Source: Tetrahymena thermophila SB210 (Eukaryota; Ciliophora; Oligohymenophorea; Hymenostomatida; Tetrahymenidae). Taken from it: a stretch of 64,000 bases of DNA. The stretch spans positions 868,001 to 932,000 of the forward strand of contig NW_002476413.1 of NCBI RefSeq assembly GCF_000189635.1, read 5' to 3'. Positions 16,561 to 37,858 of this stretch are shown piece after piece (positions within the stretch are counted from its first letter, which is position 1; each line of letters starts with the position of its first letter). The translations under genes and the position numbers were made by a program. Under the pieces are notes generated by a model. The model saw only the letters and a program-made list of their open reading frames with translations. It searched no databases and was not told where the DNA came from.

Positions 16561-17761
16561 CTAAAACTAAATCTTCAATATTTTAATACAATATATATTT
16601 AATTAAAATCAATCCTTTTTTAAATATTGTTTGTTTTTGATTAAATATAACAACATATATTTTTACATATCCATGCTAACAAAAATAGATAAAAATATTA
16701 ACAAAAATTAAATAATTAATTTTTAGTTTTTAAAAATAATTCATTTTCTAATTTAATCACAAACTCTACTTCTTTAAAAATTAAATTAATAAAAGCAAAA
16801 GACTCAAAAGTATTCCTTTTTTAATATTTTCCTTTACAAGTTAACTAAAATTCATTGATTTTCTACAAAAAGGAAAAATCTTACTCTGAAAAAATGAATT
16901 ATAATCTTGATAACAAAAAATTAGAATAATTTCGTTTATATTTAAGATCTTCTATGTTATTATAAATACATCCAACACTTAGTATCTTTGTAAAACTTAA
17001 AAAGATAAATTAATTAGAAATTCATCTCATTTTAAATTTGAATTATTAACAAGAAAGCCATGAGTTATTAAAAAAAATAGACATATTTTTAATAAAATTA
17101 TTCAAGATTAATATTAATAATAAAATTAATTTAAACAGAATTTCTTCAAAAAAAAATAAAATTTTTGAAATTTATAAATTTAATTATCTTTATTTAAGAT
17201 ATAAAATAATTTTCTATATTTCTTTTTATTTTTTTGAGGCGATGAATGATTGATTAAAAGATGTAATGATATAACTAACTAGGGATATTTTTAACTTAAA
17301 TGATTCAGATTTTTACAATCATTTTAATTTTTTCTAAATAATTTAAAACTTAAATCTTTTTTATTAAATAACTTTTTATTAATTAACATAGCTTACTATT
17401 ATCAAAATCAATAAGTTTAACTACAAAAAAGAAAACAATAGAGCAATCAGCAATAATTTAATGATTTTAAATTTTAATATAAGAATATAGTAAATATTTA
17501 AAATAAATGAAAATGATAAATTCAAAGCTTTTTTTCTACTGATTTGTTTCTATTTCATTTAATAGAAAAAATTATTACTTAATCTGATTAAAACCTAAGT
17601 AACATTATTTATATATTAAACTTAAGAAGTATTTATAATTAGTTTGGGAAATTAATAATTGGGTAATCAAATTATTAATGAATATTATTGAAATCAAAAA
17701 TAATCTAAAAGCACTTCAATTCCTTTAAAATATACCTGCCTAGAATAATAAATAAGTTTAA
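16561..17761. other. Spacer upstream of the tandem membrane-protein genes
   Basis: No gene was recognised. From about 17112 the sequence belongs to the 2.64-kb duplicated unit, with matching DNA at 19753 onward. The frame of the first membrane-protein gene is already open from about 17588, with an in-frame ATG at 17678, but I prefer the later start. Confidence 0.5.
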
Positions 17762-19402
17762 ATGTATAATAATAGCATCGCATAATAAGATTAACATTCA
17801 GTTTAAGTACCTTTACTCAACTAAGAATATTAGGTTTAGAACCAATAAAATAACTATCTTTCTTACAACTAATTATAAGTCTAAAATGATTAGTAAAACC
17901 AAAACAATCGTTAGAATTAAATTATCAATTTCTCAAACGGATAAGAAATGATAGACCCAGACTTCCTCTATTGCAAATAAAGTATGATAAATAAAAGTTG
18001 TAATGATAAAAGAAGATAAGTTGAAAAATTATCTACTTTACTTTCACAAGTCCTATCTTAACTACCACTTAGTTTCACCTCTATATAACTAATTGGCAAA
18101 GCAAATATTTACTCGGGACTATACTGCGAAGAAAAAATAATCAAACCACTGATTGCTGAGAATACTCATGTAAATGAGTTTTTAATAAGAAATGGATATG
18201 TTGTGAACTGCTGCAATATACTATGTTCCACAATTAAGTCTTAATCTTTTATTGCTGTTGCTATTTTGCTTTCTACGCTTCTTTATTAATCTTTGCTCGA
18301 TTTCATTTATTTTAATAATACTTACTCTCATATTAATAGCATCGGTAAAATAAATATCATATATATTTCTTAAATTGCTATCACATCAATTCTGCTTATC
18401 TTGTTCTTATTTTCTACTATTTAATTCAACATTAAGATTCTTTACGTGTCTTACATTTTGAGTATAATTAACTAATTATTAGTCTCGGTTGAAGTATGCT
18501 GTAATTTCATAATAGGTTAAGACTACCGTGATGCTATCTTTGCTTATCTATCTATACATATCTTTTGGGCTATTAGGATTATTACTGATTTCTTGCATAT
18601 TTATCAAATTTATATAAATAAACTAAGTGAAATTATTAGTTTTACTCTAAAAAATGGAATAGAAGGAATTTTCAAATTTATGATAATTCAAATATAAAAT
18701 TTCAACTTTTACAAAACAATTATTTTTATTAGTGTGTAAAAAGGATGGAATTACGTGTATATGATACCTCAATAGATCATAAATACGCGATACAGTTTAA
18801 ATATAAAATTTCATATTCTCAAATAGGCTAAATTTAAAAGTTATTAATAAAAATTAAAATTATTAAAATATTTTTTATTTATTTCTATTATTGTTAATTT
18901 ATCAATCAATCATAAAATATTGATTTATCTAAATTAAAATATATTAAATTAAATTAAAAAATAGTTAAATTCTTCAATTCTTTACAACAAAATGTGATTG
19001 ATTCCATATCATTAAATTTGTGAAAATCATTTATTTGGCTAATAATAAATACTTAAAAAATAAAAATAATAACGAATAATTTAAAAATTCCATTCTTGTT
19101 AATATAATAAAATGATAAAAAGATTAAAATGAATTCATTTTTTAATCATTAAACTTTTATTTTAGATTTATTTGTAAAATATAAAGTTTTAGTTTTATTG
19201 ATTTGGTAAATTAAAATAAATTAAGAAAGATATTAAGATATTAACGAAACACTTATCAGTGTTATTCTAATACTGATCAAAGATCCTATTTAATAAATAA
19301 AAGAAATAGATAGAATTAGATTTTTTTTTTTTAAGTCTACAAATTAATTTATAAAAATTAAAACAAAAATATATTAGGACTGGTGTGTTGTTAAAATTAA
19401 GA
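17112..19402. repeat. 2.64-kb tandem duplication, copy 1
   Basis: The text from about 17112 (AATAAAATTAATTTAAA) to the stretch ending GTGTTGTTAAAATTAA at 19401 recurs from about 19753 to 22045, with an offset of 2,635-2,641 bp depending on position. It is highly similar but carries scattered substitutions and indels. It contains one complete membrane-protein gene and both its flanks. Confidence 0.9.
17762..18997 (+). CDS. Tandem membrane protein paralogue 1, frameshifted C-terminus
   Basis: I do not recognise the family. The N-terminal ~60 residues are Gln/Asn-rich (MYNNSIAQQDQHSVQ), followed by a conserved domain with PDFLYCKQSM, STLLSQVLSQLP, IKPLIAENTHVNEF and several Cys, then at least three hydrophobic helices (FIAVAILLSTLLY, IIYISQIAITSILLILFLF, YILSIINQLLVSVEVCC). 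Relative to paralogue 2 it has an extra 4 bp near 18548-18555 (TATCTATCTATAC versus TATCTATAC). From there the frame differs from paralogues 2 and 3, the shared C-terminus (LLLIS...KLLVLL) is lost, and translation runs about 150 codons through what is 3' flank in copy 2, to TGA 18995-18997. The start at MYNN follows paralogue 3, which has no upstream in-frame Met; an upstream in-frame ATG exists at 17678. It may be a degrading gene or one with a new C-terminus. Confidence 0.7.
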
Positions 19403-20400
19403 GGATGGAATTACATGCATATGATACTTCAATAGATTATAAATACGCGATACAGTTTAAAAATAAAATTTCATATTCTCAAATAGGCTAAGTTTAAAAG
19501 TTATTAATAAAAATTAAAATAAATGATTAAAATATTTTTTACTTATTTCTATTATTGTTTATTTATCAATCATAAAATATTGATTTATCTAAATTAAAAT
19601 ATTTTTTATTCAGTTAAAAAATAGTTGAATTCTTGAATTGTTTATAGCAAAATGATTCCTATCATTAAACTTTTGGAAAAACATTTATTTGGCTAAAAAT
19701 AAACACTTAAAAAATAAAAATAATAATGAATAATTTAAAAATTCCACATAAATATAAATAATAAAATTAATTTAAATAGAATTTCTTGAAAAATCAAATT
19801 TTTGAAATTTATAAATTTGAATTATCTTTATTTAAAAATATAGTCTTCTACATTTCTTTTATTTTTTTGAGGCGATGAATGATTGATTAAAAAATGTAAT
19901 GATATAACTAACTAGGGATATTTTTAACTTAAATGATTCAGATTTTTACAATCATTTTAATTTTTTCCTAAATAATTTAAAACTTAAATCTTTTTTATTA
20001 AATAACTTTTTATTAATTAACATAGCTTACTATTATCAAAATCAATAAGTTTAACTTCAATAAAAAAGAAAACAATAGAGTAATCAGCAATAATTTAATG
20101 ATTTTAAATTTTAATATAAGAATATAGTAAATATTTAAAATAAATGAAAATGATAAATTCATAGCTTTTTTTTCTACTGATTTGTTTTCTATTTCATTCA
20201 ATAGAAAAAATTATTACTTAATCTGATTAAAACCTAAGTAACATTATTTATATATTAAACTTAAGAAGTATTTATAATTAGTTTGGGAAATTAATAATTG
20301 GGTAATCAAATTATTAATGAATATTATTGAAATCAAAAATAATCTAAAAGCACTTCAATTCCTTTAAAATATACCTGCCTAGAATAATAAATAAGTTTAA
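18998..20400. other. Spacer between paralogues 1 and 2, made of duplicated DNA
   Basis: No independent gene is seen. The stretch contains the end of duplication copy 1, an additional partial copy of the 3' flank (19402-19752), and the beginning of duplication copy 2. Confidence 0.6.
19402..19752. repeat. Extra copy of the paralogue 3' flank
   Basis: AGGATGGAATTAC followed by GATACTTCAATAGATTATAA and AAATACGCGATACAG occurs at 18742, 19402 and 21377. The middle occurrence, about 350 bp, is not followed by its own gene and sits exactly between the two 2.64-kb units, so it is a third, solitary copy of the gene's 3' region. Confidence 0.88.
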
Positions 20401-22046
20401 ATGTATAATAATAGCATCGCATAATAAGATTAACATTCAGTTTAAGTACCTTTACTCTATTAAGAATATTAGGCTTAGAACCAATAAAATAACAATCTTT
20501 CTTACAACTAATTATAAGTTTAAAATGACTAGTAAAACCAAAACAATCATTAGAATTAAATTATCAATTTCTCAAATGGATAAGAAATGATAGAGCCAGA
20601 CTTTCTCTATTGCAAATAAAGTATGATAAATAAAAGTTGTAATGATAAAAGAAGATAAGTTGAAAAATTATCTACTTTACTTTCACAAGTCCTAACTTAA
20701 CTACCACTTAGATTCACTTCTATATAACTAATTGGTAAAACAAATATTTACTCAGGACTATACTGCGAAGAAAAAATAATCAAACCACTGATTGCTGAGA
20801 ATACTCATGTAAATGAGTTTTTAATAAGAAATGGATATGTAGTGAACTGCAGCAATATACTATGTTCCACAATTAAGTCTTAATCTTTCATTGTTGTAGC
20901 TATTTTGCTTTCTACACTTCTGTATTAATCTTTGCTGGATTTCATTTATTTTAATAATACTTACTCTCATATTAATAGCATCGGTAAAATAAATATCGTA
21001 TATATTTCTTAAATTGCTATCACAACAATTCTGCTTATCCTGTTCTTATTGTCTACTCTTTAATTCAATATTAAGATTTTTTACGTTTCTTATATATTGA
21101 GTATAATTAACTAATTGTTGGTCTCGATTGAAGTATGCTGTAATTTCATAATAGGTTAAGAATACAGAGATGCTATCTTTGCTTATCTATACATATCTTT
21201 TGGGCTATTAGGACTATTACTGATTTCTTGCATATTTATCAAATTTATATAAATAAATTAAGTGAAATTATTAGTTTTACTCTAAAAAATGGAATAGAAG
21301 GAATTTTCAAATTTATGATAATCCAAATATAAAATATCAACTTTTACAAAACAATTATTTTTATTAGTATGTAAAGAGGATGGAATTACGTGTATATGAT
21401 ACTTCAACAGATTATAAATACGCGATATAGTTTAAATATATAATTTCATATTCTCAAAAGGATAAATTTAAAGATATTAATAAAAAAATTAAAATGATTA
21501 AAATATTTTTTATTTATTTCTATTATTGTTAATTTATCAATCAATCATAAAATATTGATTTATCAAAATTAAAATATAAATTAAGTTAAAAAATAGTTAA
21601 ATTCTTGAATTCTTTCTTGCAAAATGTGATTACATATCATTAAATTTTAGAATGGCATTTATTTGGCTATAAATAAAACACTTAAAAAATAAAAATAATA
21701 ACAAATAATTTAAAAATTCCACATAAATATTTTCCATTCTTGTTAATAAAATAAAATGAAAAAAAGATTTAAATGAATTCATTTTTTAAACATTAAATTT
21801 TTATTTTAGATTTATTTGTAGAATAGAAAGTTTTAGTTTTATTGATTTGGTAAATCAAAATAAATTAAGAAAGATAATCAATCACCTATTAATGAAACAC
21901 TTATCAGTGCTATTCTAAGATTGATCAAAGACCCTATTTAATAAATAAAAGAAATAGATAAAATTAGATATTTTTTTTAGTTTACAAATTAATTAATCAA
22001 AAGTAAAACAAAAATATATTAGGACTAATGTGTTGTTAAAATTAAT
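19753..22046. repeat. 2.64-kb tandem duplication, copy 2
   Basis: This is the partner of 17112-19402 in direct orientation. It shares the GAGGCGATGAATGATTGATT stretch (17236 and about 19870) and all of the paralogue gene. Copy 2 keeps the uninterrupted reading frame. Confidence 0.9.
20401..21318 (+). CDS. Tandem membrane protein paralogue 2 (intact form)
   Basis: This 305-residue product is nearly identical to paralogue 1 up to the region after FAYL, then keeps the frame that ends YISFGLLGLLLISCIFIKF, QVKLLVLLQKMEQKEFSNL. That C-terminus aligns with the C-terminus of the more diverged paralogue 3, so this is the ancestral frame. Features are a Gln/Asn-rich N-terminus, a Cys-containing middle domain (PDFLYCKQSM; IKPLIAENTHVNEF; NGYVVNCSNILC) and four predicted membrane helices. 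The start MYNN at 20401 is chosen by alignment to paralogue 3; an in-frame ATG also exists at 20317. The stop is TGA 21316-21318. Function is unknown; the layout of a polar, Gln-rich cytosolic or lumenal N-terminus plus four helices suggests a small integral membrane protein. Confidence 0.8.
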
Positions 22047-22306
22047 TATTTATTTTTGATCAATTAAAACAATGTATAGATTAAATTGATTATGATTCTC
22101 ATTCATGTTTTTTGCAAAGTTAATAAATAATTCATATTTTATCAGCAAATTAATGTATAGAGTTTTTTTATTTACCTTTGTATTATTAATAATAGAAAGA
22201 ATTAAATACTTCTTGAGACCAAATTATTTATATTATTATTAAATTAAATAAATCTTTTTAAACATCAAAAAGTAAAGAAAAACAAATCTTGCAAAATAGT
22301 TACTAA
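21319..22306. other. Spacer between paralogues 2 and 3
   Basis: The first ~730 bp are the 3' part of duplication copy 2. The remainder is unique A/T-rich DNA leading to paralogue 3. No gene is seen. Confidence 0.55.
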
Positions 22307-23257
22307 ATGTATAACAATAACAACCCATTATACTAATAAAATTCCTCTGGCCAACAGCCTCTACTAAATCCATAGTATTAAGATTAAAATTAACAAGTAA
22401 ATTAATAATTTGCTTAACAGAATTATTAGCAGTATAATTAACTCTAAAATCAAAACTAAAATGCTTAATACAATCCACCAGCTCCTCAAAATTAAATAAT
22501 GTGCTTCCCTAATGGTTAATAAATATTAGATCCAGCTTTGCTATATTGCCAATAGAGCATAAGAAAACGTAATATCTGCGACGATAACAGTACAGCAGTA
22601 ACAAACCTAATGATCTTGCTTTAATTAATTTTAGCTTAATTACCTTTAAGATTTACCTTTTTATAAGTAGCTGGAAATTCAAATATATATTCTAGTTAAT
22701 TTTATGAAGAAAAAATAATCAGACCACTCATAACAGAAAATACTCATGTTAATGAATAAATTATAAGAAATAGTTATGTTGCTTATTGCAGTTAAATACT
22801 CAGCTAAGGAATGAAATCTTATTCTATTTTTGTTATAGCTACTTTGTTAGTTGCAATTGGTTATTTAGCTGGGATGAATTTAATGTATTTTAATAACAAA
22901 TACTCCTATATTAATAGTATTGGTAGCGTTAACATAATATACATTTGCCAAATTGTTTTTATCATAATAAATTTGATTCTTTTCATTTTTGCTACAGTAA
23001 AAAATATTCCTAGGTTAGTCTAATACTCTTATTATGTTAGTTAATTTAACTAATTCTTTATCGTAGCTGAAATCTGTTGCAGCTTTATAATTTCCTATGA
23101 TTACATGGATGCCTATTTAGCTAATTTATACATCTCCTTCGCACCTATTATTCTACTCTTAATTTCAACTCTTCTGATAAAATATATTCAAACAATCCAA
23201 ATGAAATTATTGGTTTTATTAGGTTAAGCAGACAAAAACGAATTCTCAAAAATATGA
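22307..23257 (+). CDS. Tandem membrane protein paralogue 3 (diverged)
   Basis: This 316-residue single-exon gene is of the same family as the two upstream genes but clearly older. The N-terminal ~80 residues are Gln/Asn/Pro-rich (MYNNNNPLYQQNSSGQQPLL). The family domain follows: NGQQILDPALLYCQQSI, AQLPLRFTFLQ, EEKIIRPLITENTHVNEQ, SYVAYCSQIL. Then come four hydrophobic helices (IFVIATLLVAIGYLAG, IIYICQIVFIIINLILFIF, QFFIVAEICCSFIIS, APIILLLISTLLIKYI) and the tail KLLVLLGQADKNEFSKI. The upstream in-frame TGA (22214) with no other ATG fixes the start at 22307, which in turn supports the MYNN start for the other two. The stop is TGA 23255-23257. Function is unknown. Confidence 0.82.
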
Positions 23258-23499: not shown

Positions 23500-24185
23500 A
23501 TGATAAATAAGTATAAAGATAAATTACCATTAATTCTGCAATAATTTTATCTCATTATTTCGAAAAATGTTAATAACATTATTTTATCTGAAAATAAAAA
23601 TTGTTTAAAAAACATTTTCATAATATAAAAATTTAATTATTTTAACTAATTAATTATAATAAACATTTTTTAAAGAATATGAAATAATTTTGTAATAAGT
23701 TATTTAAGTAAACTTTTATAATAAGTAAGAATAAAGATAAATTACTATTAATCCTCTAACCCAAAAAGCAAAAGTTTTTTCTCAATATTTCGAAAAATGT
23801 TAATAATATTATTTTATCTTAAAAATAAAAATTGTTTAAAAAGTATTTTCAAAGTATAAAAATTCAATTAATTAAACTAATTAATTATTATAAAAATTTA
23901 AAAACAATTTGAAATAATTTTGTAATATTTTATTTAAGTAAACTTTTATAATAAGTAAGAATAAAGATAAATTACTATTAATTCTCTAACCCAAAAAGCA
24001 AAAGTTTTTTCTCAATATTTCGAAAAATGTTTATAATATTAATTTATCTGAAAAATAAAAATTGTTTAAAAAGTATTTAATTATTTAAACTAATCAATTA
24101 TTATAAAAATTTAAAAACAATTTGAAATAATTTTGTAATATTTTATTTAAGTAAACTTTTATAATATGTAATAATTAAGATAAAA
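23500..24185. repeat. Tandem repeats of about 213-230 bp, three or more copies
   Basis: AACTTTTATAATAAGTAAGA recurs at 23711 and 23941 and, diverged, near 24154. Each is followed by AAAGATAAATTACTATTAAT, AACCCAAAAAGCAAAAG, then TTTCGAAAAATGTT, then AAAATTGTTTAAAAA. A more diverged copy begins near 23500. The array lies between the convergent ends of paralogue 3 and the next gene; nothing in it looks coding. Confidence 0.85.
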
Positions 24186-24296
24186 TACACAATTATCAAA
24201 TTAATTTTTTAAAAATAAAATAATTTATTAGAAATAATTTAAATTTAAACATGAGTGTTAATTATAACTTTGATTTAAAATGATTTGCAACATCTA

Positions 24297-31932: not shown

Positions 31933-33013
31933 ATCAATGAAGTTTATAATAAAAAAATTTAAGTTGATTTAAAAAAATAATAAAATTATCATCACATCAA
32001 ATCGATCAGTCTTTATATTTTACTTATTTTGTTAATATTTTCATTTTATTTCCTTAAATAATTTTTAATTAGAATTTCATCTCTGTAAGTACAAAAATTT
32101 AATCAATGTAGAAGTATTTTACCAATAGCTAGCATTATTACAATATGTAAAAATATGGAATAGACTAGAATAAAATTAAACTAAAAATAAACTCTTAAAT
32201 TCCTCAATTTAAATTTTATCAAAAAAATAAAAGAATCACTGAAATTAAAAATAAAATCTAAAATTAAATTTAAAACAATTAAATTTTTTTTTTATATAAA
32301 AATTTTTTTAATGTGCTAAAAGAATGTTGGCAAAATAAATGGATATTTTTAGTTATATTAATTCTTTATCTTCAACTTAATTAATTTAAAATTGATTAAT
32401 TTAGAAAAAATTAAGAAATTTTATTTAAAGTTTATCAATAATTTACTTTCTTTTAAAAAAATTACAAAAATATTTTATTAATAAAATTAAAATGATAAAA
32501 AACATATTAAAAATAAAATTAAGATTTTAATTAAGTTAAAAATAATTCATTTTTAGAATTTAAAATAAAAAAATAAATTTCTTGAATTAAAAAAAGTTAT
32601 TTGAAAAAGTTTAATTTATAAGACTAGATGGATTTACAATTTTTTAAGATTAAGATTTAATTAATTGAAATAAATTTATTTTACAAAACAATTCATTTTT
32701 AGAATTTAAAATAAAAAAATAAATTTCTTGAATTAAAAAAATTTATTTGAAAAAGTTTAATTTATAAGACTAGATGGATTTACAATTTTTTAAGATTAAG
32801 ATTTAATTAATTGAAATAAATTTATTTTACAAATATATTATTCTTAGATGTTTTATCAATTAATTTATTTTAATAAATAAATTTATGGATCCATAAATTA
32901 TATTTTAATTTTAAAAATAAAAGTTAGAGATTTATTAAAAATAAATTAAATTATGATATAAAGAATTAAGAAGTAGGTTAAAATATAAAATTTTTATTTA
33001 GAAATTAATTTTG
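31933..33013. other. Spacer with 146-bp direct duplication
   Basis: No gene was recognised between the convergent ends of the coiled-coil gene and the finger/propeller gene. The notable content is the duplicated 146-bp unit at 32555-32846. Confidence 0.6.
32555..32846. repeat. Tandem direct duplication, period 146 bp, two copies
   Basis: AGAATTTAAAATAAAAAAAT at 32555 recurs at 32701. Both are followed by ATAAGACTAGATGGATTTAC and AAGATTAAGATTTAATTAAT. Copies are nearly identical, which implies recent duplication. Confidence 0.92.
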
Positions 33014-34177
33014 TCAAATTTACGAGTTAAAAGATGAAATTTAAACAGGTCTGTTGGTATAAATATAAAGATCTTTTCCAGAGGCAATTATTTAGTTATT
33101 TACTATTTTGAGTCCTGTTATTTAGTTTTCATTTGTGGGCAAGGTAATATTTTAAAGTAATTTAGATTTGACTAAGTTAAAGATGGTAATTTATTAGTTA
33201 AGATTATTTGTAAACGCAATAGTTTACTAGTTATACATATCAATAAAATCTATCATATTATATTTATTAGTAATAGTACTGATTTTATTCAGCTAAGCAT
33301 CTCTCAACACCATACTATAGCTTAGACTAATTGTGATTACTCTATTTAGATTTAGTGTTTTTATTTATTGTATTCCCATGCTTTGCTTGTTAAAAGATTA
33401 AATTAACTAACCATTTCTAATATCCCATTTGAGGATAGGAGTATATATATCAGAACAGGTAAATAAATGAATATCGTTTAGCTTTTCTATCTAATTAAAA
33501 TAGCATCCTCTTATAGGGCTTACGATTATCCTTATTATTTTAAGTTTTTCATTTAGCAAAACAACAGAATCTTCGCCATCATTTAGCATAGCAATTATTT
33601 TATACTTTTCAAAATAAACAATTTACTTGATATATTATTTCTATTAATACTAGTAAGTTTATTTCATATTTGATATATTGAAAAGCTTGATGCAACCAAA
33701 AACAGAACCTGCAAGTAAAGTTTTGTTATCAATAACAATCAACTGATTGAAGCATTTACCTTAATTTACCTGTCTTGTAATTTATCTTGTTTCCAAATCT
33801 AGCTCACATATTTTTTACTTGTGAGCAGTGAAAAATAATAGCATTGTCTTTTTAGTTTTATTATGAACATACGATACCACATTTGAGACACAGTATACAT
33901 TGTTTATACGGAAATCAAGTGCATAATTCATGTACTTTTCTTTTTACTTTAAGCCTATATCTTCGATATCATGGTCTGCATGAAACTTGTTTGAGCAAAT
34001 ATCGCAAAAATTTTCATCACACGAAAGGCACCTATATGTGAATTTAGATTTATGTTTCAAACAATAATAATTCAATGGATATTTCCACTTTTTCTTAATT
34101 TATCTAGGTTGCACTGTTTAGCTAAAAATATCACTAATACTCATTGGGTCATAATCTGAAAGATCATCAAATTCCAT
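33014..34177 (-). CDS. B-box-like finger plus beta-propeller-like protein, copy A
   Basis: One intronless frame of 387 residues. After an acidic start (MEFDDLSDYDPMSISD), residues ~35-75 contain a Cys/His cluster, YYCLKHKSKFTYRCLSCDEN followed by FCDICSNKFHADHD, with the C-x-x-H...C-x-x-C...C-x-x-C...H-x-x-H spacing of a B-box-type zinc finger. The remaining ~300 residues show short repeated beta-strand-like segments typical of a propeller (LLAGSVFGCIKLFNI, IHLFTCSDIYTPILKWDIRN, GLKIVNNQIIASGKDLYIYT), although no clean GH-WD repeats are seen. The start is ATG 34177 and the stop TGA 33016-33014. The next gene upstream (35432-36568) is a diverged paralogue in the same orientation. A role in protein-protein interaction or ubiquitin-related regulation is possible for such architectures but not shown. 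Confidence 0.75.
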
Positions 34178-35431: not shown

Positions 35432-36568
35432 TCAATTTACTGAGACTTGATTTTGTACAAATTTTCTTTTGTAAATTAAAAAATCATTAGCAGGTATCAC
35501 AATATAGTCATTGGTGATGTATATGTAATAGTACATAACACTATTTTTAGGGAGTGATATTATTTGAACTACTTCTTCCTTTAATAAATCACAAATTATC
35601 AATCTTCTCATATGAAAATTGATAAGTATTATAAATTAGTTATCTACTAACTTAGAAATGTATGAGTTTCTATAATATGTGTTGACATAATCTAAGGCTT
35701 TTTCACCAATTCTTCTGTAATTCTTTTTGCAATCACGCATAGTAAGCAAAAAGTTTAATCTCTAACGATTTCTATGATCAGGTGTTTTTTTGAAAAGCTC
35801 GTCTGTTATGCCTGTAATAACATTTATTTTATGAATATAAATTATTTGTATTGTAGGCTATATTGTTGAACAAAGCAGGTGTTCTTGACTTAATTTGTCA
35901 ATTTCAAAAAAGAAAAGATGTTCACTATTTTTAATTTTTCTAACAATCCTGAGTTTCATGTTCATTAGATATACTCCTCCGCCTTCACTGGCAACAACCA
36001 AAATTTACCTATTCTCAAAATATTCGATATCATGAACAATAAATTCCAATTTTCCTATTTATCTTTAAGCCATAAAGTTAATATCAAACATGCGAATAGT
36101 ATAATTATGCCAAATCAGTAATTATACATTTTTTATCGTCTTCATACGATAAGAGTTTTCTACCATTAAAATCTACCTCTTAACACATTTAGCTTCCAAA
36201 TCAAAGTCATTTAAGAAATAGTTACTACAAAACAATAACATCAACCTCTTAGTCTGTTAATCTACATATGATACCACATTAGATTTGCAGTATTAATTAT
36301 TAAGCTCAAAATATTTCTCAAAGGTAAAGGTTGAATCTGTATCATTTCCACTAAAGATACCTTTAAATATATGATTATCTTCTATTCCTTTTTTTTCACA
36401 ACTGTTGCATATTTTTTTTTTGCATAAATAACACCTCAAAGTGAATTTTTAGTTGTGTTTTTTACAATAAAAGTTAATTTTGTACTTCCATATTTTTTTG
36501 AACTTTTTAACGAGTTTAGCTGGTTTATTTAACTAACTATTAGCTTCTTCTTATGATATTGTTTTCAT
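35432..36568 (-). CDS. B-box-like finger plus beta-propeller-like protein, copy B
   Basis: One intronless frame of 378 residues, paralogous to the gene at 33014-34177. Shared landmarks are KKIWKYKINFYCKKHNQKFT with RCYLCKKKICNSC, the counterpart of copy A's finger, and SNVVSYV followed by a KK/KR..MLLFF/C-type segment. The finger has lost part of the distal His pair (KKGIEDNHIF replaces KFHADHDIED), so zinc binding may be incomplete. The C-terminal part has strand-like repeats (QILVVASEGGGVYLMNMKL, DYIVIPANDFLIYKRK). The start is ATG 36568 (MKTISQEEANSQLN) and the stop TGA 35434-35432. The order finger then propeller is the same in both copies, so they arose by gene duplication followed by strong divergence. 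Confidence 0.72.
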
Positions 36569-37858
36569 TTTATCTCTTCTGATAATTTTTTACTAATATA
36601 AAAAGAAAAATAAATAAGTAAAGCTTAATGACATAAATATATACTAAAAATATAATTTATCATGCTATATGTAAAAATTTTTATCATTCCAAATAATTGT
36701 ATCAAGCCTTGCAGCATTAGGTCATTTTTTTTACAAATATAATTTAAAACTTTTAAATTTAATCACGGTACTTAAAATTTTTATGGTAATTAAAAAATAA
36801 TATCATTTAACCAGTTAAGCACAGTTAAGCGAACAAGAAGTACAAATTTTAGGATTGAAAAAAGACTTTGAAAAAAAAGGACCTAAAAACGAGACACAAA
36901 AAATTGAAAATATTATTATAAATAAATATTAAGATATATATAAAAGAAAATATATGTTTGTAACCATACATGTTACATGTTTGTAAAAGAAAATAAATAC
37001 AATAATATCATTTAACCAAATTCTAAAAAAATAAATATTTGATAAAGAATATTTTTAAATGAATACTATATAAGTGTTAGTTAATCACTAACTAATATTT
37101 TTAATATATATTTTTAAATATTTTTTAATAAATTATAAATCTTTAATTATATTTTTTCTAATTAGAAAGAAATGAGTTTATTTTTACAAAACACCTGATC
37201 AAAATAAATAAAGAAAATTAATTTTCATTCACTGACATTTACATTTTAAATAAAATTATATCTAAATAAGTAGAAGTAAATTAAAATATGGAGTAAATCA
37301 TAAAAAAAATTTGCAATATTTGTAAGTTTATTAAATATTTTGTTAAAATTTAAATTGCTAGTTCTTAGAATTAATATTGTTAAGCAAATAAGTATTATAT
37401 TTAGTATTTTTGTTAAAATAAAAAATTGAAATAATGATAAATAGCATTTGAAAAAGATAAGCCTTGATTTATAATTATAAAGAATAAAATTTGTGAGAAC
37501 TCTATGAATTTATATTAAAAAATAAATACATTTTTATAAAATAGTTAATTAGTTAGTAACACAAAAGATTGTACTCTTCAATATAATATTTAAAAATTAT
37601 ATATTTTTTGTTTTGTTGATTTATTGATTTATATTTATTTATATAAGTTGTTTGATTGATTGATTGATTATTTATTCTATAGAGGAAGTTAATGATATTT
37701 TATAGATCTAATTTATTTTTTTATTAGATTATTAATTTTTTTAACTTACTTTCTATAAATTGTTTGAATTACTTCAAATTAAAATTGATGTTTTATATTT
37801 AACAATTAAAATCGTTTTTTCCAGCATATTTTCTTTTCTGATTTATTAAATCTTTTTT
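36569..37858. other. Intergenic A/T-rich spacer
   Basis: No gene was recognised. The sequence is simple and A/T-rich with no obvious larger repeat. It separates the 5' end of the finger/propeller copy B from the 3' end of the kinesin gene. Confidence 0.6.

Follow-up and report, generated by a model that had tools for sequence, protein, structure and literature searches.

A tandem gene duplicate in Tetrahymena thermophila with an apparently recent frameshift, most likely a pseudogene in the making

Results

Organisation of the array

We examined a window of 64,000 nucleotides from the Tetrahymena thermophila SB210 assembly (contig NW_002476413.1, positions 868,001 to 932,000 of the forward strand), and all coordinates given here are positions within it. 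A telomerase RNA-binding-domain locus of the same genome matches the Protein Data Bank telomerase entries 2r4g, 5c9h and 6d6v, which come from T. thermophila; with 2r4g it shares 101 of 102 aligned residues, and the single mismatch is at the first of them. The long frames of the window require that TAA and TAG be translated as glutamine, which fits a code with TGA as its sole stop (table 6), as an earlier sequence-only reading of this DNA had claimed. The window carries the two units of a tandem duplication, each with one gene copy (A and B), followed by a third paralogue (C):

17112..19400, plus strand: unit 1 of the tandem duplication (flank, copy A and 3' flank), placed by sequence comparison
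17678..18997, plus strand: open reading frame of copy A, 439 amino acids, from translation with table 6
19399..19756, plus strand: F', an additional, incomplete copy of the 3' flank, noncoding, between the units; it matches 18739-19092 (F1) and 21374-21734 (F2)
19747..22046, plus strand: unit 2 of the tandem duplication; its first bases are common with the end of F'
20317..21318, plus strand: copy B, 333 amino acids, with the ancestral frame and C-terminal end; stop at 21316-21318
22289..23257, plus strand: paralogue C, with the same end as B; first ATG at 22307, 322 amino acids if read from the TTG at 22289

Units 1 and 2 are adjoining direct copies that include both coding sequence and flank, the hallmark of a tandem gene duplication. 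They show 106 mismatches over 2262 aligned columns (95.3% identity) in a register of 2633-2648 bases, in agreement with the 2.64-kb duplication that the same reading had described. Divergence this large means that the units are not one sequence assembled twice, and on this identity and the private changes we rejected an assembly artefact as the source of the whole duplication.

Divergence between A and B is very uneven along the units. A low-divergence part has 9 mismatches in about 700 columns (17221-17921 without its final block of 100 columns), and much of the 3' half of the units has 5-13 mismatches per 100 columns. The longest identical run spans 258 columns around the start codon (17561-17818 versus 20200-20457), far above expectation at 4.7% divergence and matched by none of 5000 shuffles, which assume one even rate, so that unequal constraint could also contribute. 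This pattern suggests gene conversion between the 5' parts of the two copies.

With F' between the units, the array is more than a plain duplication of two units. At aligned sites F' is 90.8% identical to F1 and 86.6% identical to F2, and in the same alignment F1 and F2 are 88.9% identical to each other. The order flank, gene, flank piece, gene therefore requires more than one rearrangement step, and we infer that two joinings and a single loss are the likely path. Between two TTCCA repeats, unit 2 (21721-21736) has about 15 bases that unit 1 (19088-19092) lacks; F' retains the first part of them. Directly downstream of paralogue C, an AT-rich unit of 230 bases is repeated about 2.9 times (23538-24188).

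A four-base difference and its effect on the reading frame

Near position 18548, copy A reads TTTGCTTATCTATCTATACATA where copy B reads TTTGCTTATCTATACATA, so that A has four bases more. The features that matter for the shift are as follows:

18545..18555, plus strand: period-4 tract TATCTATCTAT of copy A, one unit longer than its counterpart in B (21184-21190)
18548..18683, plus strand: former coding sequence of copy A, read in the new frame (old stop column 18681-18683)
18684..18997, plus strand: former 3' flank within the open frame of copy A, ending in TGA at 18995-18997

The two copies share one frame up to codon 290, after which A continues for 149 codons in a new frame. About 45 of these fall in what was coding sequence and about 104 in what was 3' flank. 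Several claims of the sequence-only reading bear on this site. The 4-bp difference is real in the assembly, as just described. The accompanying view that it is a one-unit expansion of a TCTA repeat holds for the gain of one unit and fails for the prior existence of a microsatellite: since the period-4 tract of B is only about 1.75 units long, the four bases are a one-unit tandem copy rather than a microsatellite expansion. Likewise, the run of about 150 codons is open as stated, and only some 104 of its codons lie in the former 3' flank to which all of them had been assigned. Had the shift at this site led into the other wrong frame, that frame would have ended after 12 codons (TGA at 18586). 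In copy A an indel of a length not divisible by three falls in a frame that its relatives have kept, a recognised sign of a pseudogene.

The gene family and the direction of change

A family search with B and C covered the 101,022,631-base assembly in 445 contigs, and its counts are lower bounds. Besides copy A it returned at least ten family places: B, C, one on C64, four on C94, two on C140 and one on C86; these include L021, a weak relative (E 4e-4). In an alignment with A, nine of the ten have their ends a few residues at most from one common column, most of them in a stretch like LLVLLxQxDQxEF, and the tenth (L022), read without alignment, ends like the rest. Copy A is the only family member that departs from this common C-terminal end. 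As at least ten other family places end where B ends, A is the derived copy; the earlier reading had concluded the same from the third paralogue, and the wider family now extends the argument. On C94 the four further members lie at about 529-580 kb, three of them within about 6 kb.

By sequence, this is a small Tetrahymena family of predicted multi-pass membrane proteins. Pfam returned no match for copies A and B and two sub-threshold matches only for paralogue C, and a Protein Data Bank sequence search with copy B gave no match. PF19193, chosen as a guess at a Tetrahymena-specific family, had no match in the genome and none in the control genomes. AlphaFold models built on three-row alignments reached a mean pLDDT of 36.1 for copy B and 40.5 for copy A. 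The frameshift in A removes the last predicted membrane segment together with the common end of the family: the hydrophobic segment at residues 293-311 of B (mean Kyte-Doolittle hydropathy 2.43) is without a counterpart in A, whose extension gains a weaker hydrophobic segment at residues 400-418 (mean 1.69).

Constraint on the copies and age of the shift

Before the shift, the 867 nt compared between A and B contain 40 substitutions, of which 22 are silent and 18 change an amino acid (dS 0.129, dN 0.027, ratio 0.21). When the 17 amino-acid differences were polarised with paralogue C and the copy on C64, three fell in A and six in B, and eight stayed unpolarised. The low ratio and the small number of changes in A indicate that copy A was not decaying. 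We looked before the shift for the relaxed constraint that marks pseudogenes and saw none in A, which is expected if the shift is very young, and the label of pseudogene stays provisional.

Between the shift and the old stop the copies differ at only 2 of 135 sites; neither difference changes an amino acid in the old frame, and one does so in the new frame. This is fewer than in the neighbouring third of the gene (20/289; Fisher P 0.019), and it is not significantly fewer than in the whole pre-shift stretch (40/867; P 0.16). Local gene conversion could have produced the same low divergence as youth. From the old stop to 18997 we counted 19 mismatches over 306 aligned sites and 10 gap columns, a level like that of flank. 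The simplest reading of these patterns would be a recent shift and an extension that was noncoding until then. Selection on the extension was considered and rejected, given this flank-like divergence and the open frames in noncoding copies.

How unusual is a long open frame?

On the plus strand of the window TGA occurs once per 61.5 codons, and the three usual stops together once per 11.2. Local TGA frequency in three flanks puts the probability of a run of 149 open codons at 0.105, 0.126 and 0.069, and on this basis (0.07-0.13) we rejected the idea that the open run of A is unusually long. Copy B has 104 open codons in the homologous frame (21183 to the TGA at 21495) and the noncoding F' has 79, so this openness is background. 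The duplication and the shift exceed chance; the length of the open frame does not.

We introduced a shift of the same class in silico at each codon of seven open reading frames of the window, and also in nine family genes. Both samples include B and C and are not random samples of genes. In the seven frames, 293 of 2415 shifts (12%) run past the old stop, as do 244 of the 308 (79%) placed in the last 44 codons; frames open for at least 149 codons number 87 of 2415 overall and 70 of 308 among the late shifts. With three stops, 132 of 2415 shifts overall and 118 of 308 late ones pass the old stop, and in neither set does a frame stay open for 149 codons or more. For the last 45 codons of the nine family genes, 133 of 405 shifts (33%) pass the old stop and 9.4% reach 149 open codons or more; under three stops the number that pass is 127 of 405, by a median of 4 codons, and none reaches 149. 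As the two samples of late shifts disagree (79% versus 33%), both are given and no single rate is proposed.

Since only 293 of 2415 shifts pass the old stop, most frameshifts still truncate even under a one-stop code. An extension requires a late shift (79% versus 12% overall) in the right frame, the other one here stopping after a dozen codons. What the code does is to make long runs possible, as none of the 308 late shifts stays open for 149 codons with three stops. The proposal that this genetic code turns a frameshift into an extension rather than a truncation therefore holds for the length that an extension can reach and fails as a rule.

Transcript end and fate of the tail

The end of the new stop of A lies 314 nt downstream of the old one. 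An RNA-seq study put 83% of T. thermophila 3' UTRs below 300 bp, lengths that its authors caution are likely underestimates (PMC3274533). The new stop lies beyond most reported 3' UTRs of this species; it could still lie inside the mRNA of A, since the remaining 17% are 300 bp or longer and the lengths are underestimated. An AATAAA occurs at +163 in A and at +161 in B, a candidate signal only, as this motif is common by chance in such DNA.

Two fates can be pictured by analogy with other ciliates. If the mRNA of A ends before 18995, ribosomes would meet no stop and the message would be cleared by nonstop decay; if it ends after 18997, the extended protein would be made and probably degraded. 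According to a study of tandem stops in ciliates, translation past a stop usually ends in nonstop decay or degradation, and extensions are generally degraded, the more so when longer (PMC6879139). A nonstop mRNA or an unstable tail seems likelier for A than a new protein, and judging by its sequence the extension is unlikely to exist as protein.

Discussion

We regard it as reasonably probable that the locus holds a tandem duplicate with recent slippage in A, the result being damage of an ordinary kind to a duplicate and not the birth of a new protein. A membrane-protein gene was duplicated in tandem, A and B would both then have been kept under protein constraint, and a recent slippage by one unit would have put four bases into copy A, where, with TGA as the sole stop, the new frame runs on for 149 codons. 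Copy A is most likely a young frameshifted tandem duplicate, a pseudogene in the making. One weak point of this account is the hydrophobic segment at 400-418, which may make a membrane-inserted product of A 'not absurd'.

Another explanation is that the four bases are absent from the real copy A, having entered through a sequence or assembly error, and that A is an intact gene. Such a gene would show what we see, namely no decay after the shift (the two differences there being silent in the old frame) and a constraint ratio of 0.21 before it, and near-identical neighbouring copies permit local misassembly. The difference is, on the other hand, exactly one period-4 unit, which is the mark of slippage and not a typical base-calling error, and A has private substitutions on both sides of the shift, which argues against a chimera of B reads; we hold an error to be rather unlikely. 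The bases could also be real and only somatic, a macronuclear variant that arose, for instance, when an internal eliminated sequence (IES) was excised imprecisely, or through slippage that has yet to assort. MDS junctions of T. thermophila are described as accumulating indels, with strains that differ by imprecise excision (PMC10868616), and the youth of the shift would fit. Against this, the account in PMC5182062 gives just six solid coding-region IESs, all with TTAA ends and precise excision, and the shift site GCTTATCTATCTATACATA is without TTAA, so that we give a somatic origin little credence.

Two further explanations would leave copy A with a working product. It might make a stable extended membrane protein that has been kept, its new 149-residue C-terminus having a role; the frame is indeed open throughout, and the weak hydrophobic segment comes with a basic make-up (18 K/R versus 3 D/E). 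Yet the region varies like flank, noncoding copies are equally open, the common end of the family is lost, the 3' UTR is probably short and the structure model of A has too low a confidence to help (mean pLDDT 40.5), which together make a retained new protein very improbable. Alternatively, an intron or programmed frameshifting might restore the ancestral frame and let A still make the old protein, as the nearly intact old-frame sequence past the shift and the wide use of +1 frameshifting in Euplotes ciliates (PMC10235951, PMC4759687) would allow. B, C and other family members read through the region without an intron, however, and Euplotes-type frameshifting takes place at a stop codon in the starting frame, whereas A has no stop at the shift and its first TGA is at 18995. 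Of the explanations weighed here we consider restoration the least probable.

As a damaged duplicate, A has counterparts in other systems. It resembles the duplicated frameshifted pseudogenes of tandem arrays, in which one of two similar neighbours has a disabling indel and the other is intact, with the differences that the frame of A stays open, two of the three usual stops being sense codons, that the damage does not look like truncation and that constraint has not yet relaxed. In the plant MADS-box duplicates euAP3 and euAP1/euFUL a late frameshift has replaced the C-terminus, as in A, and the new ends are described there as conserved (PMC3794426); in A, by contrast, we saw no conservation, its extension region diverging from B like flank in the one genome with the shift that was compared, and the event looks very recent. 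Ciliates with reassigned UAA and UAG offer another parallel, since translation can enter the 3' UTR and the cost described, nonstop decay or a degraded extension, is the one proposed for A; the trigger in that work is readthrough of a normal stop, and in A it is a frameshift mutation (PMC6879139). With the coding-region IESs of T. thermophila, as reported in PMC5182062, A would have in common the idea of a germline-soma difference inside coding sequence, whereas those elements have TTAA ends and precise excision and the site in A lacks TTAA.

The A/B pair is a clean, young example of damage to a duplicate, with little wider weight as things stand. It does carry a warning for Tetrahymena: with TGA the sole stop in AT-rich DNA, a frameshifted copy may look like a longer gene, so that an uninterrupted frame is weak support for calling a gene intact. 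Should the tail really be made, the pair would become a before-and-after test of the reassigned code in the birth of new C-termini. An extended A protein would be a datable, one-step C-terminus drawn from another frame and former 3' flank, it would mean that a one-stop code lowers the barrier to new C-termini, and the unshifted neighbour B would serve as its control.

Other features of the window include two recent two-copy tandem repeats, one of 352 bases with a 95% match (285-986) and one of 146 bases with a 98% match (32539-32833). On the minus strand, a B-box-like protein encoded at 33014-34177 scores above the Pfam B-box cut-off (26.1 versus 24.1 bits), and its B-box-like neighbour at 35432-36634 scores below it (20.6 versus 24.1 bits).
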